Assembly (NCBI GenBank): GCA_015231915.1
Contig: JADGAR010000017.1
Location: 1 to 64,000 of the forward strand
DNA length: 64,000 nt
Reading direction: 5' to 3'
Origin: Magnetococcales bacterium
GTDB taxonomy: Bacteria > Pseudomonadota > Magnetococcia > Magnetococcales > Magnetaquicoccaceae
Positions 24,400 through 42,703 of this stretch are shown one piece after another. Below the pieces are notes generated by a model, which saw only the letters and a program-made list of their open reading frames with translations, ran no database searches and had not been told where the DNA came from. Every line of letters begins with the position of its first letter. The first letter of the stretch is position 1. The translations under genes were made by a program, and so were the position numbers.

Positions 24400-24461
24400 A
24401 TGGCGCGTGCCGGCAGACAGGCAGCGGGAAACATCCCCCATTGGTCACGAGGAGAATGGCA

Positions 24462-25244
24462 ATGCGCATGCTACCCACTCTGCGCAGCTTTGTGGTGATC
24501 CTGACATTCTGGAACGCGACAGCGACCGGTGCAGAGCCGATCCGGACCATCACCAATTCCATCGACATGGAGTTCGCCTGGATTCCGCCAGGCAACTTTC
24601 TGATGGGTTCCGATCGCAGGCGGGATCGGGATGCCACCCTGCACGAGACGCCGCGTCATCCGGTATCGATCACTCGCGGATTCTGGCTGGGCAGGCATGA
24701 GGTGACCCAGCGACAGTGGTCGGACGTGATGTTGTCCAATCCCAGTTATTTCAAGGGAGTGGACCTGCCGGTGGAGCAGGTCGCCTGGGAGGATGCCCAG
24801 GAGTTCGTCAGGCGGCTGAACGCCCGTGAGAACACCTTGCTATACCGTCTGCCCACGGAGGCGGAATGGGAGTATGCGGCACGGGCCGGGTTCGACACGG
24901 TGCGTTTTTTTGGCAACGACACCGAATGGATGGAGCAGTACGCCTGGTACAAGGAGAACTCCGGCGGTCGCACCCATCCGGCAGGCACGAAGTGGCCGAA
25001 CGGCTGGGGCTTGTACGACATGCTCGGCAATGTTGCCGAATGGGTCTCCGACTGGTACGGCAGTGAGCACTATGCCTCATCCACCAGCAGCAATCCCAAG
25101 GGTCCGAAGGCTGGGTCGATGCGGATCATGCGTGGCGGGAGCTGGTTTTCTCCTGCCAGGGAGCTGCGCGCGGCCCACCGTCACGAAGAGCCGGGGAATG
25201 CGACCCGCATTGTGGGGTTGCGGGTTGTGAAGGAAGCGCCATGA
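24462..25244 (+). CDS. Formylglycine-generating-enzyme-fold (SUMF1) exported protein
   Basis: 260 residues with a signal peptide (~1-24, ending near ATGAE). The FGE-sulfatase fold is clear: EFAWIPPGNFLMGS, FWLGRHEVTQRQW, YRLPTEAEWEYAARAG, GLYDMLGNVAEWVSDW, and RIMRGGSWF near the end. True FGEs use cysteines near RGGSW for copper; this stretch (RGGSWFSPARELRAAHR) has none, so it is probably not a sulfatase-maturing enzyme. The ATG at 24462 is chosen because AGGAG lies 7 nt upstream; ATG 24456 is too close to it. Role unknown, perhaps a ligand-binding or structural use of the fold. Confidence 0.85.
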   Translation: MRMLPTLRSFVVILTFWNATATGAEPIRTITNSIDMEFAWIPPGNFLMGSDRRRDRDATLHETPRHPVSITRGFWLGRHEVTQRQWSDVMLSNPSYFKGVDLPVEQVAWEDAQEFVRRLNARENTLLYRLPTEAEWEYAARAGFDTVRFFGNDTEWMEQYAWYKENSGGRTHPAGTKWPNGWGLYDMLGNVAEWVSDWYGSEHYASSTSSNPKGPKAGSMRIMRGGSWFSPARELRAAHRHEEPGNATRIVGLRVVKEAP

Positions 25245-25290: not shown

Positions 25291-27255
25291 ATGAAAATTT
25301 ACAGCATTGCATTGATGATCCTTTTTGCCCTTGCCTTGCATGGCTGGGGATCTCTTGCTTTGGCATGGTTTTATGGCAAGGAGCGACCTGTACGCTTTGC
25401 GTATCCAGTCGTCATGGGCATGGCGATATGGATTTTTCTTGGGGCATTTTTGCAGCTCATGGGGCTTGCCACGGGTTGGATGATCGACCTGATGGTGGCG
25501 GTGGGGTTGGCGCTGGCGGTTTGGCTGACCTTGATGCCGGTTTACCGCAGGGAGGGGTTGGTCGGGCTTGTGCGGTTGCTGCCCTATTCCGAGCGACGGG
25601 ATTTTTGGCTTGACCTTTCCTATGGTGTCATCTACGGCACGGCAATTTTTTTGTTTCTGTTTTTGACGCCTGCCAAAAGCTTTAATTTTGGTGATGATCT
25701 TGATACATATTTTAATTTGGCAGTGGCACTGGTAAATTATGGTACCCTAGCAAATCAAACATTTCATAGTGCCGGCATTTCATCCGTGGGAGGATTTCCT
25801 TTTTTGCAGGGATTTTTTGCGGCGCATCTCCCCATTGCCTACATTGGCACAATGGACCACGTTTTTGCGCTCCTGTTGGGATTGTTTCTGCTCAAAGAAA
25901 TGGCGGAAGAGTTGGCGGTTCCGTCACACGCTTTGCCTGGGGCGATGGTGCTGTTCATCGTCATCAATCCTCAGATCGTCAATGTTTCTGTGGTGTATAC
26001 GGGGGCGGTGGTGATCATGGGATTGTTTATTGCCACGATACGCTTGTTTTCGAGTCTGACGGACGCCTCCATACGTCAGCAAATTCTGGCATCAACGCCG
26101 GTGGCGCTTTTTGTTGGCGCATTGTTGCCATTGAAGTTTACATTTATTATATTTATTGGTATATTTATTATTGTTATGTTGTCAATATTGCCATATGAAC
26201 GGCTTTGCACCCGACATGTTATATTAATGGTATTATTTAGTGCTGCTTTGATTGCAGTTGAAACCTTAGCCTGGGGATTGCCGTTTCAAGACAAATTTGA
26301 GATCATGCTTGGTTTGACAAAAAGTGACATTGAAAAGGAAGCAGGCAATTCGTTCATTATTAATACAATTAATTATATTAAATTTTTAACCAAAGACACC
26401 AAATTATTTTATGGTGCAAGCCCAGTTTATTATACATTGATTTCTTTATTGATGATCATTTCAACCCTATGGTGCTGGCGCCACATGCGCCAGAACAAAG
26501 CGTCGCATGCTTCTGCTCCGGCGATGGTGGCGTTGGGCAGCGCTGGTTTCATCACCTATCTGCTCATGGGACCGATGGCAGGACGCATTGAGGATATGGA
26601 CACAGGTATCCGCTATGCCATCCCAACCTTGTTGGGGGTGGCACCTGCAGCCATCATGACAATACAGAATTTGCACGTGCAAAAAATTCATAATTTTTTT
26701 CTTTATGGCGCATTGATCGCCATTTTCGCCTTTTTCAGCACATCATTTGCCGAGCGGATCGGAAAAGCTGTGCATCATCAGCATGTCATAGCCTTTCCAC
26801 TGGCATCGGATGCCATATACCGCAACGGGATTCAAGCCATTCTGGAGGATCGTCACAAACAGGAACTGCGCAGCATACAAGATCGCGTCCCGCCAGGAAA
26901 ATCGATTCTGACAATGTCACCGTCAAATTACCATTTTGATTTTAAACGTAACCAAATTTTATTGGCGGACGGCGGCATTTATCATGGCAGGATCATCCAT
27001 CTCAAAAGCACCTGGGAAGAAGTAAGCCACTCTCTTGTGACTATGGGGATTCATTCCATCATTTGGAAATTCCAGGGGTTTGGGATAAAAGATTTTAAAT
27101 ATTATCAAAACAGCTTCAACTCGATCAATCCAGAGACGCGCTATTGGAACAGATTGCTTTATCATTTCCTGACGATCCTGGTGGGATTCTCTCAACATTT
27201 TGCCCATGAAGTCATTGGCGATTATCTCGTGATCGATCTGACGAAGCCACTATGA
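25291..27255 (+). CDS. Polytopic membrane protein, possible GT-C glycosyltransferase
   Basis: 654 residues with roughly 11-13 hydrophobic spans over the first ~500 residues and a soluble C-terminal part (~540-654). I do not recognise a named family. The first large extracytoplasmic loop has an acidic motif (FNFGDDLDTYFNL, about 130-142), where GT-C polyprenyl-phosphate-sugar transferases carry a catalytic acid. That is a suggestion, not proof. Base composition falls well below the neighbours across ~25650-26480, with a run of AT-rich codons, a sign of acquisition. It ends 10 nt from the convergent flippase gene. Confidence 0.65.
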   Translation: MKIYSIALMILFALALHGWGSLALAWFYGKERPVRFAYPVVMGMAIWIFLGAFLQLMGLATGWMIDLMVAVGLALAVWLTLMPVYRREGLVGLVRLLPYSERRDFWLDLSYGVIYGTAIFLFLFLTPAKSFNFGDDLDTYFNLAVALVNYGTLANQTFHSAGISSVGGFPFLQGFFAAHLPIAYIGTMDHVFALLLGLFLLKEMAEELAVPSHALPGAMVLFIVINPQIVNVSVVYTGAVVIMGLFIATIRLFSSLTDASIRQQILASTPVALFVGALLPLKFTFIIFIGIFIIVMLSILPYERLCTRHVILMVLFSAALIAVETLAWGLPFQDKFEIMLGLTKSDIEKEAGNSFIINTINYIKFLTKDTKLFYGASPVYYTLISLLMIISTLWCWRHMRQNKASHASAPAMVALGSAGFITYLLMGPMAGRIEDMDTGIRYAIPTLLGVAPAAIMTIQNLHVQKIHNFFLYGALIAIFAFFSTSFAERIGKAVHHQHVIAFPLASDAIYRNGIQAILEDRHKQELRSIQDRVPPGKSILTMSPSNYHFDFKRNQILLADGGIYHGRIIHLKSTWEEVSHSLVTMGIHSIIWKFQGFGIKDFKYYQNSFNSINPETRYWNRLLYHFLTILVGFSQHFAHEVIGDYLVIDLTKPL

Positions 27256-27265
27256 TGGATGGCAA

Positions 27266-28234
27266 TCAGGAGAAGGCGTGGCGATAGCCGAGCCATCTGG
27301 CCAGGAGGAAGCATCCCAGGATCAAGAGATACAACAAACACACCACGACAATCACGACCGACGAAGCGGTGGCGGCAGGGATGCCGAACAGGACCAGCAG
27401 GGCAGCGTAGCTGTATTCACCTGGACCCAGGCCGGTGGGGAGCAACGAAATCAAACCGGCAACAATGCTGCCGGAAGTAATGAAGGCAATGATTGCAAAG
27501 CCTCCTGGCGACCAGTGAATGGAATCCTGAGGAAAACTTAATATATAAAAATAATTGCCGGCTATGGTTGTCAACATATACAGAACTGAAAATAAAATTG
27601 AAGTTATCATAAGCCGTGGATGCAACAGGATGTCCTTGCAACCAGACAAAAATGAGACGACGTGGCGCCTCAGGAGTGTGGCGAACAAAAGGACAAACAG
27701 GCCAATGGCGCACAGGACAACGAGCACGACCGAAGAGGAGTCATTGCCAACGCTTTTGAAGAGATCACGCAGCGAGTGTACCAGGGTGTCGTCCATCAGC
27801 AGGTACAAATAAACAATGACAAGTGAATTCAATAAGGTCAATACCCGTTCGAAAAGGGCGAACCCAAGCAGTTTGGCCAGGCCGATACCGGTTTGACGAT
27901 GGAACAGCAGTGCCGAGAGGGGTTCGCTGGCCCTGGCCGGGAGGAACACTCCCGCAAACGTGGTGGTGGTCAGGATGGAAAAAATCACCATCAGCGGCAT
28001 ATCGATCTGGTTGCAAAAAAAATAATTCTTCCAAAGCAGGGTACGCACGCCGTACAAAGCCACCAGTGTCAGGGCGATGCCGAGCAGGAGATGAACGGTA
28101 CGCAATTCCGGCAACAGTGCAAAGGCTTCGTAGGGCTTGAAAAGGACGACGAACAGGGAGACGGAAAGCAGGACAAGCACAGACCGTCCACGCCGCAATG
28201 CAGCGCCTTTCAGGGGTGGGGCCTGAGAATGCAT
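27266..28234 (-). CDS. Flippase-like integral membrane protein (LPG-synthase TM / UPF0104 type)
   Basis: 322 residues with about eight membrane spans. Family hallmarks are the LPARASEPLSALL segment in the first third and LLPTGLGPGEYSYAALL near the C-terminus. Such proteins are linked to lysyl-phosphatidylglycerol flipping or to glycolipid and polysaccharide export, but the substrate varies. It is last in a minus-strand series YdcF, two cobalamin-type radical-SAM enzymes, radical-SAM/SPASM enzyme, flippase, starting 18 nt after the preceding gene. A role in moving the product of those enzymes is inferred from position. Confidence 0.82.
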   Translation of the reverse strand: MHSQAPPLKGAALRRGRSVLVLLSVSLFVVLFKPYEAFALLPELRTVHLLLGIALTLVALYGVRTLLWKNYFFCNQIDMPLMVIFSILTTTTFAGVFLPARASEPLSALLFHRQTGIGLAKLLGFALFERVLTLLNSLVIVYLYLLMDDTLVHSLRDLFKSVGNDSSSVVLVVLCAIGLFVLLFATLLRRHVVSFLSGCKDILLHPRLMITSILFSVLYMLTTIAGNYFYILSFPQDSIHWSPGGFAIIAFITSGSIVAGLISLLPTGLGPGEYSYAALLVLFGIPAATASSVVIVVVCLLYLLILGCFLLARWLGYRHAFS

Positions 28235-28252
28235 GGTGCGGGCGGTTCAGGA

Positions 28253-29359
28253 CTAACACAAAGTCGAGAGTCGGTTGTTCGGATCCAATTCGCCTTTTTC
28301 AAACTCCTCGATGGTAATGATGGGTCTGCCATCGATCAGCTTGTAATACTGCTCCTTGAAGGTTTGGTCCTGGGCGGTGAGGCACTCCTGGTGGTAATGA
28401 TTCCACCATTGGCGTTGCAGGCCGCGTTCCCGAATGGTGCGCAACGGTTCCAGGCGCACGTTCCCCATGGAGATGTGGGTATAGGGACATGGGCAAACTT
28501 CGCCATAGGCCGTGATATAGAGCACCTCTTTCATGCCCGGACACCCCCACTCCTGGTAATTATTGTCCAGGTTGCGCACAACATAAGGGTAATTTTTGCG
28601 TAATTCATAATAATCACGCACATCCTGCTCGTCGAGCATGTACTCCATATGGCCGTCAAGATTGCCCAGGCCACGGGCGAAGATCGTTTCCACCAGGATG
28701 TGATTCGCATGGGAATAATCCAGCAGGGCCTTGAGACCAGCCGAATGCAGATTTTGTTTGGTGACGCAGGTGTTGATCACCACCTTGACGGAGTGCTTGT
28801 TGCAAAAGCCGATACACTCCATGATTTTGGCAAAATTGCCGTCGGCGCGGCGAAAGGCGTCGTGCTCTGCTGGCAGACCGCTGTCGAGGCTGAAGTACAA
28901 GGTATCGACGCCGAGTTCCTTCAGACGGACGATGCGGGCTTCATCGAGCAGGGAGGCGTTGGTGGTGATGAGGAGGTGATTGCGTTTTGGCATGAAGGCA
29001 TTGATGATCTCCTCCCAGTCCTTGCGCACGAAGACCTCGCCGCCCTGCAGAGAGAAGCAGACGCAGCCGAGTTCCATGGATTGTTTGCAAATGGAAGCAT
29101 ATTCTTCAGGAGTCAGACGCTTTTGCTGATTATCCTTCAATTTCATAGAATAACAATGTTCGCAATTGAAATTACAATTATAGGTGACAGCGAAATCGAT
29201 GCCCCGCAGCACGAAGTTCTGCTTTCCGGTCAGACGGTTCCATTTCGCTCGCAGCAAATTTTTGATAATCAGGAACGGATAGGTGGGATTTTTCAGATGA
29301 AAGCCGTATTTGAGACGGATATACAGCCAGTGGTACATTTTACTCAGCCGATTCATCAT
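28253..29359 (-). CDS. Radical SAM protein with SPASM-like C-terminus
   Basis: 368 residues. The radical-SAM cluster motif CNFNCEHC (CX3CX2C) is near residue 62-69, followed by the LQGGEVFVRKDW glycine-rich motif. A C-terminal cysteine-rich segment (WGCPGMKEVLYITAYGEVCPCP) fits an auxiliary SPASM/twitch cluster. Such proteins modify peptides or small molecules, and similar ones are encoded with hopanoid, lipid or glycan genes; substrate unknown. Two ATGs (29359, 29356) are available, with GGAG 5 nt before the first. Confidence 0.85.
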   Translation of the reverse strand: MMNRLSKMYHWLYIRLKYGFHLKNPTYPFLIIKNLLRAKWNRLTGKQNFVLRGIDFAVTYNCNFNCEHCYSMKLKDNQQKRLTPEEYASICKQSMELGCVCFSLQGGEVFVRKDWEEIINAFMPKRNHLLITTNASLLDEARIVRLKELGVDTLYFSLDSGLPAEHDAFRRADGNFAKIMECIGFCNKHSVKVVINTCVTKQNLHSAGLKALLDYSHANHILVETIFARGLGNLDGHMEYMLDEQDVRDYYELRKNYPYVVRNLDNNYQEWGCPGMKEVLYITAYGEVCPCPYTHISMGNVRLEPLRTIRERGLQRQWWNHYHQECLTAQDQTFKEQYYKLIDGRPIITIEEFEKGELDPNNRLSTLC

Positions 29360-29516
29360 GTGACTCCGTGCAATGCGTTCGTGGATGCCTTTCCGTCAGC
29401 AACGGCTCCTGACGCTTCATCAAGGCGCTCATTATGAAACCTTCCCCTTCTGAAGGCAACCCCTCAGCAAGGCCAGATCAGGGCAATCGCATTTGCAATC
29501 CATGATCGAATGATGC

Positions 29517-30935
29517 TCAATTGGTTTTGATTTTGAGCAGACGGAAAAAGCCATCCAGATAACTCAGTACCATGTCAGTGGAACGGATTCGTTTTGCCAG
29601 GCGCAAAATGCGTCTGAAATTGAAATAATGGGACTGCATGGCCTGCTTGTAACTGTCGCTCAGGAATTGTTCCGAGAGGCCGGGCTGATAGAAAAAAATG
29701 ATATTCGGGGCGGAAGCATGATCAATATTCCAGTATTTTTCATTTAATGGATAATTTTCTTCGACGTATTGTTTCATTTCAACCCCCATCCAGGGGTTGA
29801 ACAGGTTGAACCCGACAAAATCGAGGTCCAGATCACGCACGAAGTCGAGGGTTTCCTGGATGGTCGCTTCCGTTTCGCCGGGATAGTTCAGGATGAAGGA
29901 GGCCTTCACTTCCACACCCGCATTGCGGCTGATGGCAACGGCCTTGCGTGCGGTGTCGGTTGTGAACCCTTTGTTCATTTTTTGCAAAATCATATTCGAT
30001 CCGGACTCAATGCCGAAATTGATGCTCCGCAGACCTGCCTTGTACATGAGGGCCATCAATTCGGCATCGACGCAGTCGACGCGCGTGCAGATTCTCCAGA
30101 TGATTTTTATCTTGCGTCGCAAGATCTCTTCGCACAGCATGACAGTACGATGTTTTGATGCAGAAAAAGTATCATCAAAAAATTTGATTTCCTTGACCTT
30201 GAAGTCAGCGATCAGCTCCTCAATTTCGTCACACACATCATTGGCACTTCTGAAGCGGCACTTTTTTTCCCACAGCACACGGTCCTCGCAGAAGGTGCAA
30301 CGGAACGGGCAGCCCCGACTGGTCAGCATGGGCATGATGGGCTTTTTGTGAAACTGACCGGGCAGGTAGCGATAGTCGTGAATGGGAAAGATGTTGCGGA
30401 TCGGGTGAGGAACCGAGTCGAGATTCTTGATTTGACTGCGCCTTTTGTTGACCACCACGCCGTTTTCGTCCCGAAAGGCGATTCCTTCCACATCGCGCAG
30501 CGCGCTTCGGTTGGCGAGGGCCGGAATGACGGCGGCAACGGTCTCCTCGGCCTCACCGATGCATTCCAAATCGATTTCCGGGGAGTGTTTCAGCAGGTCG
30601 CCAGGGTGAAGGGTGGGATGCGGGCCGCCGACCATCAGGGTGCAATGGGGGAGATGTTGTTTGACCAGAGTGGCCACGTACAGGGCGGATTTATAGGTCG
30701 GGGTGAAGACGCTCATGCCGACCAGATCGAATTGACGCTGTTTCAGGAGCGTCACCAGGCTGGCATGATTGTTTTTCGGAATCTGGCAATCGAAAACCTC
30801 CAAGCGCTCCGGGTTGGCAACCTTCTGCAACACGGCAGCGATATAGCCGAGCGCGAGTGGGAAGTCGCTGTCGAGGTGGCTGATATAGCCATAATTTTCG
30901 ATATTGTGATGCGGCAGGATCAACAAGATTCTCAT
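29517..30935 (-). CDS. B12-binding-domain radical SAM protein
   Basis: 472 residues. An N-terminal cobalamin-binding fold (RILLILPHHNIEN, then VGMSVFTPTYKSAL and MVGGPHPTLHPGD) precedes a radical-SAM domain with SRGCPFRCTFC (CX3CX2C). This architecture belongs to the class B radical-SAM methyltransferase-like enzymes, used in lipid (hopanoid), antibiotic and pigment biosynthesis. The ATG at 30935 is chosen with GGGGA 5 nt upstream; a start at 30953 would add six residues. It lies 19 nt after another B12-type enzyme, so the pair probably acts in sequence on a related substrate. Confidence 0.86.
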   Translation of the reverse strand: MRILLILPHHNIENYGYISHLDSDFPLALGYIAAVLQKVANPERLEVFDCQIPKNNHASLVTLLKQRQFDLVGMSVFTPTYKSALYVATLVKQHLPHCTLMVGGPHPTLHPGDLLKHSPEIDLECIGEAEETVAAVIPALANRSALRDVEGIAFRDENGVVVNKRRSQIKNLDSVPHPIRNIFPIHDYRYLPGQFHKKPIMPMLTSRGCPFRCTFCEDRVLWEKKCRFRSANDVCDEIEELIADFKVKEIKFFDDTFSASKHRTVMLCEEILRRKIKIIWRICTRVDCVDAELMALMYKAGLRSINFGIESGSNMILQKMNKGFTTDTARKAVAISRNAGVEVKASFILNYPGETEATIQETLDFVRDLDLDFVGFNLFNPWMGVEMKQYVEENYPLNEKYWNIDHASAPNIIFFYQPGLSEQFLSDSYKQAMQSHYFNFRRILRLAKRIRSTDMVLSYLDGFFRLLKIKTN

Positions 30936-30953
30936 GAGCGTCCCCGGACACAA

Positions 30954-32558
30954 TCAGATTGTGCAATCTTCTTTGTTTTCGGTGCGGTTGCGCCACACAT
31001 AGAAATTGGCTCTGAAATAATTGTGCAAATTGCTGCGCACCACTTTTGGCAGATAGAAAAGCCAATGTTCCCATTTTGGCGAAATCCGGAACAGGGCGTA
31101 GGAAGGAATTGCGAGCTGTTTTTCCAGAAAATGAATCGCATTGATCAGGCGGCTGTTCATCTGTTGCAGGGTCAGGTCGTAGAACTGTTCCTTGAACAGC
31201 TTGATGGCGCGTTGGGTGTCGGCATCCAGATTGAAATAATTGACATCGTATGCATTGTTGGTATATCCATATGCCAAATGATAAAATGAAGGTCTCCATC
31301 CCATAATTTTCTCATCGAGATACCATTGCTTGTATGGCGTGTGATTATAAATCTCGGTGCCGGGAGGAGGCAAGGTCGTGTTGATGGAGCAGGCCTTGAC
31401 CTTGCCGATGATGCTTTTGAACAATTCATTCTCCTGATTGACGATATCTGCCGTATCAAAAGGCAAGCCGATCAGGCAATTCACGACTACATCAATGTTA
31501 TTCTTGTTGATTTGATTGATATTTTCAAGGATTCTGGCATGGTTTTTATTCTTTTTGATCCGCCCCAACGAATCCTCCGACATCCGTTCGACACCCAGGG
31601 CAATCTCGTTGCATCCGGCCTGTCTCATGGTGGTGAGCAGATCGTCGTCCAAGGGCAGCACCACATTGGTCTGACAGGAAAAGGAGACCTGCTTGTGCAG
31701 ACCGCGCTTGATGATGCCTTGACAGAATTCCAGGGTGCGATGTTTGTTGATTGTAAAATTATTATCGTAGAAAACGATGTGTTTCAAATGGTGTCGCTTA
31801 ATTAAATATTCATAATAATCCAAACGATACTCCGTAGAATGCTCCCTCACTTTGATCATCGACTTCAGCGGCAGTTGACAAAAAGTGCATTGATAGGGAC
31901 AACCACGTTGCGTAATCAATACATTGGTTACGAACTGCTCGTCCTCCTTGGCGCGAATGAAATCTTGCAGGTTGCACAGGGTATAATCGACAAATGGCAG
32001 GGAATCGAAATCCGTGAACAGATCCGGCCAACCCGTATCCACTCTCGGCTGACCAGGTGGCTGGAAAATCAATCCCTTGATGGCTTGCAGTTCCCTGGAA
32101 AGCGGTTCGGAAAGCACAAATGGCCTGGTTTCATGTCCAACAACATAAGGTTTTAAAATATTGAGCAAAGGAACGATGACCGCATCTCCCTCACCCTTGA
32201 CGACAATATCTACATGGGAATCGGCTACTTCATCCGGGGCACTGAAGGTATGCAAACCCCCGGCAATCAAACAGATCCCAGGCAGTTGCCGCCGAATCTG
32301 CGTGATCAGTTTGCGGGTGGCAAGTATGTTGTAGGAATGGATGTTGAATCCGATGACATCAGGATTAAACTTTTGAATTTCTTGGATGATTTCCTGATTG
32401 GAATATTCCTTCCTGATCGCATTGTTGTCCAGAATGCGCACTGTCGCCACAGACTTGGCGATCGTCCCGATCAATGTCAGGCCATAGGAGGTATTGGAAT
32501 AACGGTAAATGGTGTTCGATTCGCGGATTAATAACAGTTTCACCGAATTGGCCTCCAA
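30954..32558 (-). CDS. B12-binding-domain radical SAM protein
   Basis: 534 residues. The N-terminal cobalamin-binding fold is shown by VIGFNIHSYNILATRK and LIAGGLHTFSAPDEVAD with the downstream VVKGEGD. The radical-SAM motif is TQRGCPYQCTFC. The C-terminal ~100 residues are basic and aromatic and have no assigned domain. It starts directly after the YdcF stop and is followed by the second B12 enzyme, so one transcript is likely. The substrate is unknown. Codon use is AT-richer than the housekeeping genes to either side. Confidence 0.86.
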   Translation of the reverse strand: MEANSVKLLLIRESNTIYRYSNTSYGLTLIGTIAKSVATVRILDNNAIRKEYSNQEIIQEIQKFNPDVIGFNIHSYNILATRKLITQIRRQLPGICLIAGGLHTFSAPDEVADSHVDIVVKGEGDAVIVPLLNILKPYVVGHETRPFVLSEPLSRELQAIKGLIFQPPGQPRVDTGWPDLFTDFDSLPFVDYTLCNLQDFIRAKEDEQFVTNVLITQRGCPYQCTFCQLPLKSMIKVREHSTEYRLDYYEYLIKRHHLKHIVFYDNNFTINKHRTLEFCQGIIKRGLHKQVSFSCQTNVVLPLDDDLLTTMRQAGCNEIALGVERMSEDSLGRIKKNKNHARILENINQINKNNIDVVVNCLIGLPFDTADIVNQENELFKSIIGKVKACSINTTLPPPGTEIYNHTPYKQWYLDEKIMGWRPSFYHLAYGYTNNAYDVNYFNLDADTQRAIKLFKEQFYDLTLQQMNSRLINAIHFLEKQLAIPSYALFRISPKWEHWLFYLPKVVRSNLHNYFRANFYVWRNRTENKEDCTI

Positions 32559-33197
32559 TCACAGCTTGATGACCCCATTCAGCAGATAATAGGCGATTGC
32601 CAAATATTCACGCACAATTTCTCTGAATTGATCCAATTGCAACGACCACAACACAGGCTTGATCTCGACAGGATAGGCGGACACGACCGTACCCGCAATA
32701 CCCAGTTGATCCAAAAAAAGTCGTACACGCGTTGTATGATAAGACGATGTAATAAAAAGCGCTTTGTTTAAATCAAATCGCAAGCCATAGCGTTCCTTGA
32801 GCGATATCAGATCATCATATGTCCTGGAGGTCTCGCTCAACTGGAAAATGTCCTCTTCCGCAACCCCGTAACGGATCAACACGCGCTTCATGCCTTCCGC
32901 AATGGTGAACGCAGGATCCGCCGGCAAACGCAAACCCCCCAAACAAATGATTTTCTTGATTCGCCCCTGCCTGTACAGTTCAATGCCCCGTTGCAAGCGC
33001 AACAAGGTCCGGTAATCCATGATCTCCCGATCCACCCAGAAGCCCGAAAGGATCACCGCAACTTCCGCATCCCGCACCCCCTCATCCCTGATCAATGGCT
33101 TGGTCATCCATGCGACCAGAGGGGTAAATGATAGAATCAAAATTAATAGAATAAACGCGGAGCAAAATCGATTTATAATTATTTTTATTCTATTCAT
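32559..33197 (-). CDS. YdcF/ElyC-type DUF218 membrane-anchored protein
   Basis: 212 residues with one N-terminal TM (about 10-32) and a DUF218 domain outside or peripheral to the membrane. Typical segments are AEVAVILSGF, a glycine-rich IKKIICLGG and ALFITSSYHTTRVRL. Members act in envelope biogenesis (ElyC affects peptidoglycan lipid carrier metabolism). Being first in the radical-SAM gene series supports an envelope-lipid role for the cluster. Confidence 0.83.
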   Translation of the reverse strand: MNRIKIIINRFCSAFILLILILSFTPLVAWMTKPLIRDEGVRDAEVAVILSGFWVDREIMDYRTLLRLQRGIELYRQGRIKKIICLGGLRLPADPAFTIAEGMKRVLIRYGVAEEDIFQLSETSRTYDDLISLKERYGLRFDLNKALFITSSYHTTRVRLFLDQLGIAGTVVSAYPVEIKPVLWSLQLDQFREIVREYLAIAYYLLNGVIKL

Positions 33198-33616
33198 GGT
33201 CTACCAGCTTATGCAACCAAGCTCGAAGAGGCCTGGCCTGCCTGGGGCAGGTCCGCTTCAGGCATGACTTGTTGATTAAAAAAGTTATAGCAATATTAAC
33301 CGCAACCAAAATGCTCTGTCAGACTTTCATCAATCTAGCACCCCGGGCGGTGGCTGTCAATCAGAAGATTGCTCACATATGCCCCACTTGCCCCAAGCCG
33401 ATCACACCCAAAGGAGAGGGTGGTTCAAGCATTACCTGTTGAAATTGTTGATATCTTTATGCAATCAGGTCGTGAATTACCGCAACCATGACCAGCAGAA
33501 ATGCAACCCGCACCCCTTGCAACCCGCAGCGCCTTGAGGCATTCTGCAGCGTGGAAGGCGCCAGGCGCGCTCGACTTTGTTCAGGCAACGACCCCCTTGC
33601 AAGGAAACCGATACCC
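33198..33616. other. Intergenic region, no gene seen
   Basis: 419 bp between the divergent YdcF and LsrF-like genes. It is moderately AT-rich. A 6-bp stem (CCTGCC/GGCAGG, 33237-33251) with no T-run lies in what would be the YdcF leader. The in-frame extension of the downstream ORF back to 33488 has no homology-like features. Promoters for both strands must be here but are not clear. Confidence 0.5.
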
Positions 33617-34492
33617 ATGGCCGATACCGACGATCTGCGCGACACCCACGAATACCACCTCGATACCCCGCAACAGGCAGTGCCGTTCCCCCTCAAGGGG
33701 TGCGACTCCCTGGACTGGGGCATGAAAAACCGGCTTTCGAAAATCTTCTCCCCCCATACCGGTCGCACGGTGATGCTGGCGGTGGATCATGGCTACTTCA
33801 TGGGTCCCACCACCGGCCTGGAACGCATCGATGTCACCATCAACCCCCTGCTGCCCTACGCCGACACCCTCATGTGCACCCGCGGCGTGCTGCGCGCCCT
33901 GACCCCGGCCACCTTCACCAAAGGGGTCTCCCTGCGCGCCAGCGGCGGACCCAGCATCCTCAAGGAACTCTCCGACGAACGGATCGCGGTGGATATCGAG
34001 GACGCCCTGCGCCTCAACGTGGCGGCCATGGCGGTCCAGGTCTTCATCGGCGGCGAGTTCGAAACCCAATCCATCCACAACCTGACCCGCCTGGTGGACC
34101 AGGGGCTGCGCTACGGCCTGCCGGTCCTCGGCGTCACGGCAGTGGGCAAGGAACTGGTGCGCGACGCCAAATACATGCGTCTGGCCACCCGCATCTGCGC
34201 GGAACTGGGCGCCACCTTCGTCAAAACCTACTACGTCGCCAAGGGCTTCGAAACCGTCACCGCCGCCTGCCCGGTCCCCATCGTCATCGCCGGGGGCAAA
34301 AAACAACCCGAACTCGATGCCCTGACCATGGCCTATAACGCCATCCAGCAAGGCGCGGCGGGCGTGGACATGGGCCGCAACATCTTCCAGTCCGAGGCCC
34401 CGGCTGCCATGATCCAGGCGGTGGGCAAGGTGGTCCACGAAGGATACACCCCCAAACTGGCCTACGAGTTCTATCAGGACCTCAAACCATGA
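33617..34492 (+). CDS. Class I DhnA/LsrF-type aldolase
   Basis: 291 residues of the DeoC/LsrF TIM-barrel group. Visible features are [15 protein letters not shown] near the first strand, [21 protein letters not shown], and the Schiff-base Lys in [12 protein letters not shown]. The last part (VIAGGKKQ...[13 protein letters not shown]) binds phosphate. E. coli LsrF handles the phosphorylated autoinducer-2 product, but no other lsr genes are nearby, so a general sugar-phosphate aldol or thiolase role is more likely. AAGGAAA lies 9 nt before the ATG. The ATGA overlap couples it to the next aldolase. Confidence 0.87.
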
Positions 34493-36546
34493 ACAATCGC
34501 TGGTCGGACGTGGAGGCCGCCCGCTGGCAGGACGACCTGGATATCCGCACCTATGCCAGCCGTCTGCTCGGCGCGGAAAAGGGCCTGGTCCTGCACGGCG
34601 GCGGCAACACCTCGGTCAAGGGGAGCGTCCGCGACCTGCTGGGCAATACGGTCCCGGCCATCTTCGTCAAGGCCTCGGGGTGGGACCTGGCCACCATCGA
34701 ACCGTCCGGGCACACCGCCCTCGACCTGGAGGCCCTGCGCAAACTGATCGCCCTCCCCCACCTGGACGACGCGGCCATGGTCAACGCCTTGCGCACCCGC
34801 CTGTTCCAGGCCGACGCAGCCACCCCCTCCATCGAGGCGTTGCTGCACGTCTTTTTGCCACATAAATTCATCGACCACAGCCACGCCGACGCCATCCTGG
34901 CGCTCACGAATCAAGACCATGGGGAAAAACGGGTCCGCGAGGCCCTGGGGGCCGATATCGCGATTCTTCCCTATGTGCACCCCGGTTTTGCCCTGGCCAA
35001 GGCGGTGGCCGAGTTGCACGACCGCACCCCGGGTTGCCGGGCCATGGTGCTGATGCACCACGGTCTCGTCACCTGGGGCAAGACGGCCAAGGAGTCCTAT
35101 TCGACCACCATCGAACTGGTCTCCCGCGCCGAGGCGTTCATCGCCCAGCGCTCCCGCGCCCCCAAGGCCCTGCGCCGGGTCACCACCCTCGCTGCGGCCC
35201 GGGAACGCTATCTGGCGCTGGCTCCGCAGTTGCGCGGCAAGCTGGCCATTCCCACCGGCAACGCGGATCATCCCTGGCAGCGCTTCCTCCTCTCCCCGGT
35301 CATGACCCGCGAGGCCATGAATCTGGTCGATTCCGAACAGGGACGGGAGCTGATCCTCACCCCGCCCCTCACCACGGATCACCTGATCCGTACCAAGGCC
35401 CTGCCCCTTTGGATCGATGACCTGGACGCCATCGGCCCGGCGGTGGAGGGGTATCGTCAGGCCTACAAAGAGATGTTCGAACGCCACGCCGATCCCAAAC
35501 AGCGTCTCACCCCCCACGACTCCTCCCCCCGCGTGATCCTGCTGCCTGGGGTGGGGGCCGTGTGCGTGGGACGCGATGCCAAAGAGCTGGAACTGGTAAA
35601 GGACATCTTCCTGCAAACCGTGCAGGTCAAGAATCAGGTGGCGGCCATGGGGGGAAGCTACGCGGGCCTTGGCGAGGCGGACCTGTTCGCCATGGAGTAC
35701 TATCCCCTGCAATTGGCGAAGCTGGCCAGCCGCAAGGAGCTGCCCCTCTCCCGCACGGTCGCCCTGGTCACCGGAGCGGCGGGGGCCATCGGCTCCGGGA
35801 TCTGCCGCGAATTGTTGCGCAACGGCTGCCATGTGGCGGCGTCCGATCTGCCCGGCGAGGCATTGAACTCGCTTTTTGTCCAATGCAACGACGAATTTCC
35901 GGGCTGCGTCCTGGCGGTGGGCATGGATGTCACCTCCCCGGAGGCGGTGGCTGCCGGGTTCGCCCAGGTGGTGGAAAAATGGGGCGGGGTGGACCTGGTG
36001 ATCCCCAATGCCGGTCTGGCCCATGTCGCCTCCCTGGAGGAGCTGAAGCCGGCCATGTTCCAGAAATTGCAGAAAGTCAACGTGGATGGGACGTTGCTGG
36101 TCCTGGCCGAGGCGGCGCGTCTGTTCCGCAAGCAGGGGACCGGCGGGGATGTGGTGATGATCTCCACCAAAAACGTCTTCGCACCGGGTGCCCGGTTCGG
36201 GGCCTACAGCGCCACCAAGGCAGCGGCCCATCAACTGGCGCGCATCGCCAGCCTGGAATTGGCCGAAATCGGCGTGCGGGTCAACATGGTGGCCCCGGAC
36301 GGGGTCTTTGCCGACGGGGAGCGTCCCTCCGGGCTGTGGGCCGAGGTGGGACCGGATCGCATGAAGGCGCGCGGCCTGGATGCCAACGGGCTGCAGGAAT
36401 ACTACCGCAATCGCAACCTCCTCAAGGCCCGCATCACCGCCACCCATGTGGGCAAGGCGGTGATCTATTTCGCCACTCGCCAGACCCCAACCACCGGGGC
36501 CACCCTGCCGGTGGATGGCGGCCTGCCGGATGCCACGCCTCGATGA
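34489..36546 (+). CDS. Bifunctional class II aldolase / short-chain dehydrogenase
   Basis: 685 residues. Residues ~1-410 are a class II (zinc) aldolase/epimerase module with [20 protein letters not shown] and MHHGLVTWG carrying metal-site histidines. Residues ~425-685 are an NAD(P)-dependent SDR with [16 protein letters not shown] and the catalytic YSATK. This fusion is the family of bifunctional rhamnulose-1-phosphate aldolase/lactaldehyde dehydrogenase proteins. No rhamnose isomerase, kinase or transporter is next to it. With the coupled LsrF-type gene it probably processes a deoxy-sugar phosphate; the exact substrate is not shown. Confidence 0.88.
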
Positions 36547-36553
36547 GCCAGGC

Positions 36554-39500
36554 ATGCAACCTCGTCACCCCAAAGCCAGGGCATTGCTGGAAAGCGGCCT
36601 GTTCAACGATCTGACCCGTTTTGCGGAGCTGGAGTCCCGTCTGCTGGCCATTCCGGACCCGGAGTGGCGGCAGGCGGCCTTTGCGCTGCTGGCCGAGGGG
36701 GTCCTGACCGCCCGTTCCTTGCATCGGGCCGTGGAGGTGTGGCACGCCGGCCATGTGCCGATGGAGGCGCGACGGCGCTGGAGTTTGCCGGAAGCCTTGC
36801 CGGGCGCGGACGGATTCTTTCGTTCCCTGGAAGGCGAGGTGCATGTTTTTCACCTGTTGCTGGTGGAGGAGCGGGAGCGGATCGGCCAGGAGGAGGCTGC
36901 CCGCTTTGCCGGGCTGGCGACCCAGACCTTGCAACCCTTGCTGTTCACCAATGGCGACCGGCTGCCCGTGGCCTGGAAGCGCCTGCCCCCATTCCATTGC
37001 ATTCGCGGGGTGGACCTGGATCGCCTGGAGCCGCGTTTTTTTCCTTTGTTCCGGCGCTGGCTGCAGGGGGCCGGGGCCGCCGTGGAGCGTCCGGTCATGC
37101 CGCCGCACCATGCCGCCGCCCTGGAGAGGATTCAGGCCCTCCTGACGACAGGGGATCGTGCCTCCCTGACCCTCTCCCCTGGCAACGAACCGGAACTGCT
37201 GATGTTGCGCCTCATCCAGCGTCTGGGGGGCCGCCGTACCGTGGTGACGCTGCTCCCGGATGGCGAAACGCTCCTGAACGTGGTGCGCGCCTGGCGTTCC
37301 CACGCCGGGTGGGGAGATCTGGCCGCGTTGCAGGTGGCTGGCGAGGGAGAGATCGTCCATCCGGAACCCGACTTTCCCGTCACCCGTCATCCGGACGGGG
37401 TGCGCCGGTTTTTGTGCTGGTCCCATGCCGGCACGCGGGTGGTGCTGGCCAGCAGGGCAGCCGTGCCCATGCTGGCGCGCGCTTTGTTGGGTTTTCCCCA
37501 GCCTGACCTGCTCATCGGCCTGGAGACCCCCGACGAGGGATTGCCCGCCGGCAAGCGCTGTCTTTTCCGGTTTCCTGGCCCCGGCAACATCGGGGAGATC
37601 CTGCCCCTGCCTCGCCCCTGGCAATTGTTGCTGCTGCCGGTATCCGACGCCCCTCTGGCTGGCCTGGTTGCGGAAATTTTCGCCTGGGCTGCGCAACAGG
37701 AGACGATGCGGCGCATTCATCTGCTTGTGCCCGACGCCGCCGAGGTATCGGCGCCGGATTCCTGGGAGTGGTTGCGTCCGACCCGCGAACAGACCAGGGA
37801 TCGGATTGCCCTGGACCGTTTGTTCCATGCATTCGGCCAGGCCAGGCGGGGTGTGTTGGTCCATTCCGCATCCCTGCTGCCGTTTTGTCCGCCTGCCGAC
37901 CTGGTCATCCTGACGACCCCGCCCAAGGCCGGGCAGTTCGGCGCGCTGCTTGGCTCCGTTCTGACGCCGGGCACCGGTCCCGGCTGTCTGTTGGTTCCGG
38001 TCGTGATGCAAGAGGACGGCTTCGGAGAGAACAGGCTGTTGCAGGAGACCTTGCGGGGTTTGCTGGAGCTGGACGGGGGGTTTGCCGAGCTGGTCCGTTC
38101 CGTCATGGAGGCGTGGGGCCGGGAGGAGCGTCGCGACGACGAGACGCTGACCCGCCGGTTGCGGGTCCTCTCCCCTGTCTGGGAGAGGCCGCTCCTGGAG
38201 GCGTGTCTGGGTCATCTGGGAGATCCCTGGGACCGGCGGTTCGGCGAATTGCAGGCTTACCGCCGGCAACACGGGGATTGCGCGGTGCCCGCCCACTTGC
38301 CGGAACGGCCCGAACTGGCGGAATGGGTGGCGCGGCTGCGCAAGGCCGGACCCGATGTTTTGTCAGCCGCGCGGCTGGCAAGGCTCGAGGAGATCGGCTT
38401 TGTCTGGGATCTGGAGGCTTATGCCTGGGACCAGGAGTGCAGGCGGCTGGAGCGGTTTGCCGCCATTCATGGGCATGCCAGGATTCCGGAACATTATGAA
38501 AAGGACCCGCGCCTGTCGGAGTGGTGCAACCGGCAGCGGCTGTTGTGGCGCCGGGAGCGGCTCGCCCCGGAGCGGATCGCGCGTTTGCATGGGATTCGTT
38601 TTGTCTGGGATCTGGAGGAGGCGGCCTGGGAGGATGCCTTTTCCCAGTTTTTGCAATTCAAAAAATGGCGCGGGCATGGCAAGTTGCCGAACCATCATCC
38701 CGAGGATGTGGCATTGGGGAAATGGGCGGAGCGTCAGCGTCGCGAGTGGTCACTGCAAAAACTGAACCCGACGCGGCAGGAGCGTTTGACGGGTGCGGGT
38801 TTTGTCTGGGACCTGGAGGCAGCGGCCTGGGAGGAGATGTTTTGGCAATTGCAGGCGCATCGCGAGCGGCATGGTCATGGTCGGGTGCCGAAGGAGTGGC
38901 CGGAAGCGCCTGGGTTGGCGGTGTGGGCAGAGGAGCAGCGGCGTTTGCGCGAGCGGGGGACGATGCCCGAGGCGCGGCAGGTGCGTCTGGATGAGATGGG
39001 TTTCGTTTGGGATCTGGAGGCCTGGGAGCGGGAGGAGCGTTTTTCCGAGCTGGTGCGTTATCGGGAGCGGCATGGTCATGTGGAGGTGGTGGAGCCGTGC
39101 GCGGAGTTTCCGTTGTTGCCTGCCTGGGTGCATGCCCAGCGTCGCGGCTGGTTGAAGGGGAGTTTGCCGGAGGCGTGGGTGGCGCGTCTGGAGGGTCTGG
39201 GGTTTGTCTGGGACCCGGTGGAAAAGCGTTGGAACGACGGCTTTGTCGCCTTGACGGCGTTTCATGCCGGGCAGGGTCATTTTCATGTTCCCGGTGAGTG
39301 GCCCCCCTTTCCGGAGTTGCCGGAGTGGGTCAAGGCGCAGCGCACCGCCAGGGAGAAGGGGCGCTTGCCTGCTGACAAGCTGGCCCGTCTGGAGGCGATC
39401 GGGTTTGTCTGGGATGCGCGGGAGGCGGCCTGGGAAGAGCGTTTGCTGGCTTTGAGGCGGTTTCGCGAGCGGCGCAATCACTGTCTGGTGCCCGCGCAAT

Positions 39501-40234
39501 GGAGCGGTGATCCGGAGCTGGCGCGATGGGTGGAGCAGCAGCGCCGCGACTATCGCACTGGCAAATTACCGGATGCGAGGATAACCCGGCTGGAAGAATT
39601 GGGGTTCTTGTGGGATGCCAAGGTGATCTTCTGGGAGGAGATGTATGCCGCGCTCGGCGAATATCGGGAGCAGCATGGGGATTGTCTGGTGCCGGAGGGG
39701 TATGCCGCGCAGTCGCAGTTGGCGTGGTGGGTGGCGGCGCAGCGCAAGGCGCGGGTGGCTGGCCAGTTGGAGGAGGAGCGGTTGCGTCGTCTGGATGCGA
39801 TCGGTTTTGTTTGGGATGCGCAAGAGGCCGATTGGCGGGAGTCGTTGCGTCTCCTGGAGGGGTTTCACGCCCGTTTCGGTCACTGCGCGGTTCCCGCCGA
39901 CTGGCCGGAGAATCCCCGTCTGGCCTCCTGGGTGGTCACCCAGCGCAATGCGCGTCTCAAGGGTCATCTGACCCGCGAGCACGAGGCGGCCTTGTCCGCC
40001 TTGGGGATGATCTGGGATCCCAGGGAGGCGGTGGCGGAGGAGATGATGCAGCAGTTGATCACCTTTCGCGCCACCCATGGCCATTGCGAGGTGCCGCTGG
40101 ATCACCCGGACCATGCCCGGTTGGGTTTGTGGTTGCAATTCCAGCGTCAGGCCTGCAAGGATGGGACTCTGGACGCCTCGCGTCAGCGGCGTTTGACTGC
40201 GATCGGGGTGGAGTGGAAAATTTCGTTTGCGTGA
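36554..40234 (+). CDS. Large protein with decayed SF2-helicase-like half and ten HA repeats
   Basis: 1226 residues. Residues ~555-1226 hold ten helicase-associated (HA) repeats of ~66-70 residues, each following W-x3-F...hG...VP...L..W...QR...G.L...R...L...GFVWD. The first ~550 residues keep the order of an SF2 helicase but not its catalytic residues. The Walker A position reads LSPGNEPELLMLRLI (no GKT), the DEAH position reads DLLIGLETPDEG, and the motif VI position reads GALLGSVLT without arginine fingers. It is therefore probably a non-hydrolysing scaffold or nucleic-acid-binding protein. It starts 7 nt after the preceding gene; an ATG at 36515 is less likely. A diverged copy of its 3' end lies at 42466-42703. 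Confidence 0.78.
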   Translation: MQPRHPKARALLESGLFNDLTRFAELESRLLAIPDPEWRQAAFALLAEGVLTARSLHRAVEVWHAGHVPMEARRRWSLPEALPGADGFFRSLEGEVHVFHLLLVEERERIGQEEAARFAGLATQTLQPLLFTNGDRLPVAWKRLPPFHCIRGVDLDRLEPRFFPLFRRWLQGAGAAVERPVMPPHHAAALERIQALLTTGDRASLTLSPGNEPELLMLRLIQRLGGRRTVVTLLPDGETLLNVVRAWRSHAGWGDLAALQVAGEGEIVHPEPDFPVTRHPDGVRRFLCWSHAGTRVVLASRAAVPMLARALLGFPQPDLLIGLETPDEGLPAGKRCLFRFPGPGNIGEILPLPRPWQLLLLPVSDAPLAGLVAEIFAWAAQQETMRRIHLLVPDAAEVSAPDSWEWLRPTREQTRDRIALDRLFHAFGQARRGVLVHSASLLPFCPPADLVILTTPPKAGQFGALLGSVLTPGTGPGCLLVPVVMQEDGFGENRLLQETLRGLLELDGGFAELVRSVMEAWGREERRDDETLTRRLRVLSPVWERPLLEACLGHLGDPWDRRFGELQAYRRQHGDCAVPAHLPERPELAEWVARLRKAGPDVLSAARLARLEEIGFVWDLEAYAWDQECRRLERFAAIHGHARIPEHYEKDPRLSEWCNRQRLLWRRERLAPERIARLHGIRFVWDLEEAAWEDAFSQFLQFKKWRGHGKLPNHHPEDVALGKWAERQRREWSLQKLNPTRQERLTGAGFVWDLEAAAWEEMFWQLQAHRERHGHGRVPKEWPEAPGLAVWAEEQRRLRERGTMPEARQVRLDEMGFVWDLEAWEREERFSELVRYRERHGHVEVVEPCAEFPLLPAWVHAQRRGWLKGSLPEAWVARLEGLGFVWDPVEKRWNDGFVALTAFHAGQGHFHVPGEWPPFPELPEWVKAQRTAREKGRLPADKLARLEAIGFVWDAREAAWEERLLALRRFRERRNHCLVPAQWSGDPELARWVEQQRRDYRTGKLPDARITRLEELGFLWDAKVIFWEEMYAALGEYREQHGDCLVPEGYAAQSQLAWWVAAQRKARVAGQLEEERLRRLDAIGFVWDAQEADWRESLRLLEGFHARFGHCAVPADWPENPRLASWVVTQRNARLKGHLTREHEAALSALGMIWDPREAVAEEMMQQLITFRATHGHCEVPLDHPDHARLGLWLQFQRQACKDGTLDASRQRRLTAIGVEWKISFA

Positions 40235-40453: not shown

Positions 40454-40551
40454 ACAAACGCGATCCTGTACCACAGAATCCTGTGCGAAAATGTCTGACA
40501 TCAGCATTGCTCAACTTGGCCGCACAACCAAAAATAACCAGAATACGGTGA
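40450..40551 (+). pseudogene. HigA-type antitoxin relic (internally deleted)
   Basis: The 33-codon ORF starts MNKRD, a usual start of these XRE antitoxins, and ends with ALLNLAAQPKI, which resembles the end of the same family (ALLRIAAQHPE). The helix-turn-helix middle, about 60 residues, is gone. Overlap with the toxin relic as ATGA supports the reading. Assignment is by pattern and context, so moderate. Confidence 0.55.
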
Positions 40552-40558
40552 AACCTAA

Positions 40559-42025
40559 GTGGATAATAGTAACGCAGATATAGAGAAAATGTGGAGGTTG
40601 TTAGTAGATGTTCAAATATACTTTCGACATGGCATTGCGCAGCAATTGAATTCAGGAATAGCTGGTTTTGGTGATGATGATGCCTATCCTATTCATGAAG
40701 CGCATAGAGCTTTTTTGTATTTGAAGATAAATTTGTCTAAAGAACAAGTTATAGCGATCGAAAATTTATTTGTTGTTATTAAAAAGTTGTTTAATGAATT
40801 TCTTTTCGCTTTAAAGGATATTTTAAAAGCGAAAAAAATTACCAATTCTGATGCACTACTGCAAGCAAATGAGGTCTTGTCTAAAATATCACAAAAATAT
40901 GAAAATGAATTGAAGGATATTCAAAAATATTTTGTTGTTGACTCATTAGCAAGAGTCAATGGATCGGGGGATATTATGTCGAAATTTATTGAGGAAATGC
41001 GCGAGAATAAGTCTGGAGGAATAAAAATTTTTATTAGCCACTCTCATCAGGATTCAGTGTTTGCTGAAAAATTTATTGAATTATTACAAGATTTTATGCC
41101 TAGTTTGTTGGATGAAGAAATTCGATGTACTTCTGTGTCTCAATACGCACTGCCTGCAGGGGCTCAAATTTCTGATATTTTAAAAAGCGACTTAAATCAG
41201 TGCAATATTATTATTGGAATTATTTCAGAAGCAAGTAAATTTTCAAGTTATGTATTATTTGAGCTTGGAGTTGGTTGGTCTCAAAACAAGGCGATTCCAA
41301 TTCTCTGTGGGAATGTCAGCTATGATGATATGCCTGGTCCGTTAAAACAATGCAACGCATTAAGCATGGAAAATATCGATAGCTCAAAAATTATTAAACT
41401 GATGAATGATTTATCAATAAGGATTAATGCAGAAAGCAAGCAAAGCGCAGGTGTTGTTAAAAAAATCGACAACTTCATCAACTGGTATCGTGATTTCCAC
41501 GATAAAAAAAGCGATTTTACGCCAGGAGGTCTTCAAAATATAGCTCAACAAAATGATACATGCTACGATATTGATTTGTCCGTCCACGAAAATGATTTGT
41601 CCGTATTTAATAAATCTTTAAATATTATTTCATCAAAATTTATCTCTAATTTTGTTAATTTTATAATTAACAATTATGCTTTTAGAAATAAAAGTATGGT
41701 CAAATTGGATGAATTTGTTGAATTTTTAAATGACATCGATAATCATTATATTAATCCTGATTTGCTTCATAGTGTTGAAGATCTTATTTTAAAATATGAT
41801 TCTCTTGGAAAGTTTATTGGTGATAACTTTTTTTCTGACAGAACACAGACCGATCTGTTAAAACTGAAACCAGCATGGAATATTGATTCGGGTGAATGGA
41901 GTGGCAATATGGAAAATTGTGAAAAATATAATTTATTGGCAGAGGATTTAAAGAAGCTTGTTTTGGATTTTTATGACTCATATATAAATTATAGAAAATT
42001 AATAAAAAAAATATTGAAACAATAA
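40559..42025 (+). CDS. TIR-domain protein, probable immune effector
   Basis: 488 residues, strongly AT-rich against a GC-rich background, so almost surely acquired. Residues ~1-145 are helical with no named domain. Residues ~152-285 are a TIR_2-type domain: IKIFISHSHQD, a central LPAGAQISDILKSDLNQC segment, and SSYVLFELG, whose Glu235 sits where TIR NADases have the catalytic glutamate. Residues ~290-488 are unassigned and could sense a trigger or oligomerise. Bacterial TIR proteins commonly deplete NAD or make signalling nucleotides in phage defence. Start is uncertain: GTG at 40559 or ATG at 40589. It follows a toxin-antitoxin relic by 7 nt. Confidence 0.78.
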   Translation: MDNSNADIEKMWRLLVDVQIYFRHGIAQQLNSGIAGFGDDDAYPIHEAHRAFLYLKINLSKEQVIAIENLFVVIKKLFNEFLFALKDILKAKKITNSDALLQANEVLSKISQKYENELKDIQKYFVVDSLARVNGSGDIMSKFIEEMRENKSGGIKIFISHSHQDSVFAEKFIELLQDFMPSLLDEEIRCTSVSQYALPAGAQISDILKSDLNQCNIIIGIISEASKFSSYVLFELGVGWSQNKAIPILCGNVSYDDMPGPLKQCNALSMENIDSSKIIKLMNDLSIRINAESKQSAGVVKKIDNFINWYRDFHDKKSDFTPGGLQNIAQQNDTCYDIDLSVHENDLSVFNKSLNIISSKFISNFVNFIINNYAFRNKSMVKLDEFVEFLNDIDNHYINPDLLHSVEDLILKYDSLGKFIGDNFFSDRTQTDLLKLKPAWNIDSGEWSGNMENCEKYNLLAEDLKKLVLDFYDSYINYRKLIKKILKQ

Positions 42026-42042
42026 ATACATTGGCGGTTACT

Positions 42043-42470
42043 GTTGTCCACCACGGCCAGACCAACCCCCTCCCCGGTCTCACGCCACTCGATGCATACC
42101 TCCCCGGTACCGGGAGGACAAAATTTGACCGCATTGGAAAGAAGATTGATGATCACCTGCATGATCTTGTCCCGATCCGCCATCCGCCTGCATGAGATCT
42201 CCGGCACCTTGTTGATCAACCGCACCTGCTTGTTGTCGAACAACTGCCGGGTGGCGTCGATCGCCTCCTGGGCCAGCAGGGGCAGATCCACCTCCACCTC
42301 ATGCCATTCCATCCTGCCCGCGTCGATTTTGGCCAGATCCAGCATCTGATTGACCAGCCGGCTCCACCGCTCGGCCTCCTTGACGATGATGTCGGTGAAA
42401 TTGCGCCTCTCGACCAGATCCATATCCTCGTTGTCCCGCAATATCTCGGAAAAGGCGCGAATCGAGGTCA
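42043..42470 (-). pseudogene. Inverted fragment of the transporter-histidine kinase gene
   Basis: The reverse complement matches 17207-17634 over all 428 positions without gaps; I count about 18 mismatches by eye, most silent. It covers HisKA just after the phospho-His and part of HATPase_c (to VVDN). It has no start or end and cannot make a kinase. An open frame remains across it. It must derive from an allele or close paralogue, not a fresh copy. Confidence 0.9.
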
Positions 42471-42703
42471 TCTGACCCTTGAGCATGAGGCGGCCATGTC
42501 TGCCTTGGGGATGATCTGGGATCCCAGATGCAGCAGTTGATCACCTTTCGCGCCACCCATGGTCATTGCGAGGTGCCGCTGGATCACCCGGACCATGCCC
42601 GGTTGGGTTTGTGGTTGCAATTCCAGCGTCAGGCCTGCAAGGATGGAACTTTGGATGTCACGCGTCAGCGGCGGTTGACCGGGATCGGTGTGGAATGGAA
42701 ATC
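42466..42703 (+). pseudogene. Second, diverged copy of the HA-repeat gene 3' end
   Basis: It matches 39962 to about 40221, the last one and a half HA repeats, with a 22-nt deletion after 42532 that shifts the frame and about 16 substitutions. It then ends in its own stop (VEWKS-stop), differing from the full gene's end. The left edge shares GGTCA with the adjoining kinase fragment. The convergent nuoM-like stop is 55 nt away. Confidence 0.88.

Follow-up and report, generated by a model that had tools for sequence, protein, structure and literature searches.

Gene content of the block

We analysed a 64,000-nucleotide stretch of the genome of a Magnetococcales bacterium of the family Magnetaquicoccaceae (contig JADGAR010000017.1, positions 1 to 64,000; hereafter the window), in which six long open reading frames (ORFs) of the window's ORF list, here called A to F, fill positions 25291-33197 (Table 1). 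A is encoded on the plus strand, and F, E, D, C and B follow one another on the minus strand in an operon-like order: F-E and E-D are separated by 0 bases, C-B by 18 bases and D-C by 157 bases, and A converges with B across 10 bases. The guanine-cytosine (GC) content of the block is 0.486, against 0.633 in the rest of the window, which bears out the initial annotation of this DNA as a lower-GC cluster. Segments of equal length with a GC content this low or lower make up 0.35% of the total, and the minimum starts at 25600, overlapping the block. At third codon positions the GC content is 0.51-0.67 in A-F compared to 0.73-0.84 in six genes elsewhere in the window. A scan for promoters and terminators returned consensus matches only and is not used as evidence here.

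Table 1 Coordinates of the six genes and of the genes flanking them. G008 is a genome of the same genus.
Gene	Description	Position	Strand	Basis
A	654-aa polytopic protein, PMT_2 (GT-C)-like; DD motif at residues 135-136, soluble C-terminal part	25291..27255	+	profile-profile comparison
B	LPG_synthase_TM (flippase-like) membrane protein, 322 aa	27266..28234	-	Pfam
C	radical-SAM enzyme, shortened SPASM, three auxiliary Cys, 368 aa	28253..29359	-	Pfam, alignment
D	B12-binding radical-SAM enzyme, 478 aa as listed	29517..30953	-	Pfam
E	B12-binding radical-SAM enzyme, 534 aa as listed	30954..32558	-	Pfam, structure model
F	SanA-type DUF218 protein, one N-terminal hydrophobic helix, 212 aa	32559..33197	-	Pfam
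Left flank	FGE-sulfatase-type gene, G008 copy ~85%	24441..25244	+	Pfam
Right flank	DeoC/LsrF-type aldolase gene, G008 copy 94%	33488..34492	+	Pfam, NCBIfam

Two tandem cobalamin-type radical S-adenosylmethionine (radical-SAM) enzymes and one of SPASM type had been proposed for this block, and Pfam finds all three: D matches B12-binding (79.4 bits) and Radical_SAM (86 bits), E matches the same domains (48.9 and 72 bits), and C matches Radical_SAM (72.6 bits) and SPASM (27.2 bits, cut-off 21.5). All three proteins carry the CxxxCxxC motif. With a B12-binding domain, a radical-SAM domain and this motif, D and E have the features that define B12-dependent radical-SAM enzymes and are predicted to belong to them. 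C, which combines the radical-SAM triplet with auxiliary cysteines, is by the same reasoning a predicted radical-SAM/SPASM enzyme; its SPASM region is shortened, and its six cysteines (the triplet and Cys 273, 291 and 326) are kept in all eight aligned sequences. The probable start of E is GTG 32543 and not the listed TTG, judging by alignment with relatives and by a GGAGG before the GTG; D likewise probably starts at its first ATG (30935) and not at the listed TTG.

Neither C, D and E nor the seven relatives that were scanned reach a curated NCBIfam cut-off. The nearest families to D are BchE (211.9 bits of 481) and HpnJ (211.4 of 577.6), both under half of the cut-offs, and its score against the ladderane-type B12 enzyme TIGR04072 is 125 bits (cut-off 360); E scores 111.8 bits against BchE and 79.5 bits against HpnJ, under both cut-offs. 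A relative of D (57%) is encoded at G041:C80. D and E share the domain order of BchE, HpnJ, AprD4, OxsB and TsrM, B12-binding followed by radical SAM, but lie under every NCBIfam cut-off. The structure model of E (pLDDT 72) matches TsrM, OxsB, AprD4, MgmA, CysS and TokK, with sequence identities of 14-20% for the B12-type entries. As the matched structures span methylation, ring contraction and dehydration, the reaction of E is not readable from the model. Besides methylation, ring contraction, thioether formation and ring formation are named in a review (PMC13331322).

The flippase-like protein of the initial annotation corresponds to B, which matches LPG_synthase_TM (PF03706) with 69.5 bits (cut-off 33.4) and scores under the NCBIfam cut-off of TIGR00374. 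For F, annotated as a YdcF/DUF218 protein, the domain stands (DUF218, 65.8 bits) but the type does not: the best NCBIfam match is SanA (30.1 bits, cut-off 363; ElyC 20.1 bits, cut-off 205), and with its N-terminal hydrophobic helix F appears nearer to SanA than to the cytoplasmic YdcF type. In SanA and ElyC, too, a membrane helix at the N terminus precedes the DUF218 domain; F differs from them in falling under both equivalog cut-offs and in being part of a radical-SAM operon. DUF218 proteins of some kinds regulate envelope glycans of E. coli (PMC8609368, PMC12176290), and a third paper likewise connects DUF218 proteins with the control of these glycans (PMC3879167).

A matches nothing in Pfam or NCBIfam, 11 homologues of A gave only single-member matches in Pfam (E-value 0.011 or worse), and searches of PDB sequences with A and with the A-family profile returned nothing useful. 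In a profile-profile comparison (hhalign), the A family aligns with PMT_2 proteins of the same order at 97.1% over 310 columns and at 96.0% in the reverse direction, compared to 0.1-0.2% for controls (LPG_synthase_TM, NuoM, KdpA, a P-type ATPase and two other polytopic proteins); the associated E-values apply to one pair of profiles, not to a database. The aligned stretch starts just past the DD motif of A, and the charges of the loops fit a location of the DD loop outside the membrane. The GT-C transferase that the initial annotation had considered possible finds a parallel in PMT_2 by profile comparison, while A itself matches no Pfam family, and A is best described as a putative GT-C-like protein.

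Exchange at a shared site and recurrence within the order

In G008, the nearest relative, the genes to the left of the block are kept (phosphoenolpyruvate carboxykinase 96%, amidase 87%, FGE-type protein 85%), as is the aldolase to the right (94%). At the nucleotide level, a single alignment between the window and G008 starts at 18146 and reaches the end of A at 27251 (85.3% overall), and similarity resumes at 33510 (93.0%); the A proteins are 57% identical. B-F give way in G008 to a longer set of genes of these kinds, spread over about 18 kb: a GDSL protein, two DUF218 proteins, two B12 radical-SAM enzymes, two LPG_synthase_TM proteins, three C-type radical-SAM enzymes, an SDR protein, a methyltransferase and an epimerase. 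Because homology spans to the end of A and returns at the aldolase while B-F are replaced, the block is a replaceable locus, in which the B-F operon has been exchanged at a shared site. Kept flanks around exchanged genes are the pattern of surface-glycan loci.

The three C-type proteins of G008 are 32-41% identical to C of the window, and one of them is 78% identical to the C-type proteins of G026 and G028, which belong to another family; parts of the cassette therefore seem to move between lineages. C of the window is 43-44% identical to the G026 and G028 proteins.

Among the 11 genomes of the genus, the aldolase is found in eight and the FGE-type gene in two, and no clean empty site was found. 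About 18 kb before the aldolase in G009, G011 and G012 hold neither flank nor cassette genes, and neither do about 8.7 kb in G013, except for a generic B12-radical-SAM match (L084:1798-2835, 26% to D); the contigs of G010 and G017 are too short to judge the site. Insertion at a tRNA gene was rejected, as the 64-kb window contains none. Carriage of the block by plasmids or phages was rejected as well: E has no match in plasmids or phages and no relative in viral contigs, and A has no match in plasmids.

All six gene kinds occur together at two related loci besides the window, G026:C153 and G028:C308. For a wider count we considered six loci anchored on E, namely these three, G029:C33, G041:C80 and G046:C193, and excluded G026:C89, whose contig of 6.4 kb is too short, together with the remoter E-like loci of G041 and G021. 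All six loci have an additional B12 radical-SAM gene; PF03706 and a relative of C are present at five each, a relative of A at four and DUF218 at three. The chance probability is 9e-9 for PF03706 (1.5e-5 without the window and G028, a close relative of G026) and 1.1e-5 for DUF218. Accessory genes at these loci encode a carbamoyltransferase, GDSL-like proteins, methyltransferases, a DegT-FkbM fusion and NAD-epimerases, and the G046 locus has a family-2 glycosyltransferase. The radical-SAM loci of G041 and G046 also encode a second polytopic family with no Pfam match (L030:3746-5914, L031:13086-15572). Two further A loci whose stretches are without radical-SAM genes, G026:C10 and G028:C273, seem from their gene content to carry on the clusters of C153 and C308. 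The gene set is real, recurring and exchangeable, and is not assignable to a known pathway. Scattering of the genes in relatives, or assignment of the enzymes to unrelated known pathways, had been named as what would speak against a linked set; instead, the gene-neighbourhood check finds the set recurring at the E-anchored loci, and no radical-SAM protein reaches a curated family cut-off.

A contig scan with the E-family alignment, seeded by only two short patterns, found seven loci, six in Magnetococcales bacterium metagenome-assembled genomes (39-52% identity) and a distant one (25%) in a record titled Desulfosudis oleivorans. By profile search of 398 Pseudomonadota genomes, the E family is present in seven (E-value <=1e-70) and the A family in eight (E-value <=1e-15), all from the window's order. 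Within the order, E occurs in 7/48 genomes (E-value <=1e-40), six of which, the window's own included, have a relative of at least 40% identity (the seventh, G021, reaches only 33%), and A in 8/48; within the family, E occurs in 1/18. In the searches made, E thus appears to be a radical-SAM family restricted to one order.

Neighbouring genes of the window

Further along the window, a low-GC gene at 40559-42025 (+) encodes a protein with a TIR domain (TIR_2, 30.8 bits against a cut-off of 28); it matches spbK and ThsB weakly in PADLOC and possibly serves in anti-phage defence. At its end lies a histidine-kinase fragment (41989-42486, -) whose HATPase domain matches only the first 44 of 111 positions, stopping at the site of the TIR gene, and which looks cut by insertion of that gene. 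A 95-base element just before the TIR gene (40466-40560) has an 87% copy inside the alternative cassette of G008 (L078:6497-6591). In the protein of 1239 aa encoded at 36515-40234 (+), Pfam finds ten Helicase-associated (HA) domains and nothing else.

A candidate cassette for envelope modification

Starting from the gene families, the operon layout, the recurrence of the set and the replacement of B-F, we propose that the block is a replaceable cassette for envelope modification, of which we infer the substrate, the order of steps, the direction of transport and the functions of A and F. In this model, C, D and E would tailor a group carried on a lipid, B would help to bring the lipid with its load to the outer side of the inner membrane, and A would transfer the group to an acceptor, which may be lipopolysaccharide, a polysaccharide, a lipid or a protein. 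F, anchored in the membrane, would act on or regulate the extracytoplasmic end, and the enzyme that charges the carrier is presumed to be encoded elsewhere. The tailoring role is assigned to the radical enzymes because they dominate the exchanged part. The initial annotation had also read the block as a pathway for making and flipping a modified lipid or glycolipid; linkage of the genes in one pathway is supported, and building and flipping are a reasonable interpretation of it, not a result.

The nearest parallel is three-component extracytoplasmic glycosylation, as of O-antigen, in which synthesis of a lipid-linked donor is followed by flipping and GT-C transfer (PMC11127046). The GtrA/GtrB/Gtr systems and the pentofuranose systems with GT136 share with the block a flippase-like protein and an exchangeable envelope locus, and A is a putative counterpart of their GT-C transferase, but the block lacks a donor synthase and adds three radical-SAM enzymes and a DUF218 protein.

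Several observations weigh against the cassette model. The flippases of three-component systems are of SMR/GtrA or MATE type, whereas B belongs to LPG_synthase_TM. Pfam finds no polyprenyl-phosphate-sugar synthase among the six genes, the part of the genome to which this search was confined. The AlphaFold model of A, built on a three-sequence alignment, has a pLDDT of 35 and was used for no fold search. At G036, G027 and G018, the stretches read hold homologues of A but no radical-SAM genes, and the loci of G041 and G046, which lack A, have another polytopic family in its place. The chance probability for DUF218 rises to 0.028 without the window and G028, and amphipathic helices are slightly above controls in C and D and hardly so at all in E. 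Considering (i) the missing donor synthase, (ii) the low-confidence model of A, (iii) the A homologues without radical-SAM genes, and (iv) the lack of substrate evidence, our confidence in the cassette model is evenly balanced.

The radical-SAM enzymes might instead modify a bulk membrane lipid (a hopanoid-like, ether or ladderane-like lipid or a cyclitol head group) that B flips and to which A adds a head-group sugar outside. The best NCBIfam relatives of D include HpnJ (211 bits) and the ladderane-type TIGR04072 (125 bits), and B belongs to LPG_synthase_TM, but D falls under the curated cut-offs (577.6 and 360), Pfam finds no lipid-core enzyme among the six genes, and the related loci hold sugar-type genes. 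We consider this unlikely and favour a lipid-carried glycan donor, because A is GT-C-like and the related loci add glycosyltransferase, epimerase, DegT, carbamoyltransferase and methyltransferase genes.

An accidental gathering of low-GC accessory genes that are unrelated, were acquired by transfer and serve no common pathway would agree with the composition of the block, with the single E-carrying genome in the family and with the differing histories of the C-type proteins, one of which in G008 is far closer to those of another family (78%) than C of the window is (43-44%). Other families of the order have the same gene kinds grouped as well, however, and F-E and E-D abut without a gap, so that such an origin seems quite improbable. 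A role of the radical-SAM enzymes in maturing a ribosomal peptide would require a precursor, for which a Cys-rich 40-codon ORF between D and C (29432-29554, -), preceding the SPASM enzyme, was considered. It encodes 5 Cys in 40 residues, a count reached in 0.15% of mononucleotide shuffles in a post hoc test, but it overlaps the end of D, has no clear ribosome-binding site and has no convincing match in 11 related-cluster loci (best E-value 0.89). The ORF was set aside as a precursor, and we regard peptide maturation as very improbable.

Returning to the envelope cassette, a bolder version of it is that Magnetococcales carry an undescribed class of exchangeable cassettes in which several B12 and SPASM radical enzymes make a lipid-carried donor foreign to known glycans (e.g. 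C-methylated or carbon-carbon-linked) and a new GT-C family transfers it outside, a form of seroconversion by radical chemistry. This we put forward tentatively, as possible but doubtful. Searches of the literature for Magnetococcales together with radical SAM, glycosyltransferase or cobalamin, and for radical SAM together with flippase, lipid or polysaccharide, in a collection covering few subscription journals, listed no paper on such a cluster. If the cassette model is right, it would link B12 radical-SAM chemistry with exchangeable envelope decoration and would add two families, the uncharacterised and GT-C-like A and the radical-SAM enzyme E, which was seen here in a single order only. 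It would also provide a compact operon for direct tests of substrate and reaction.

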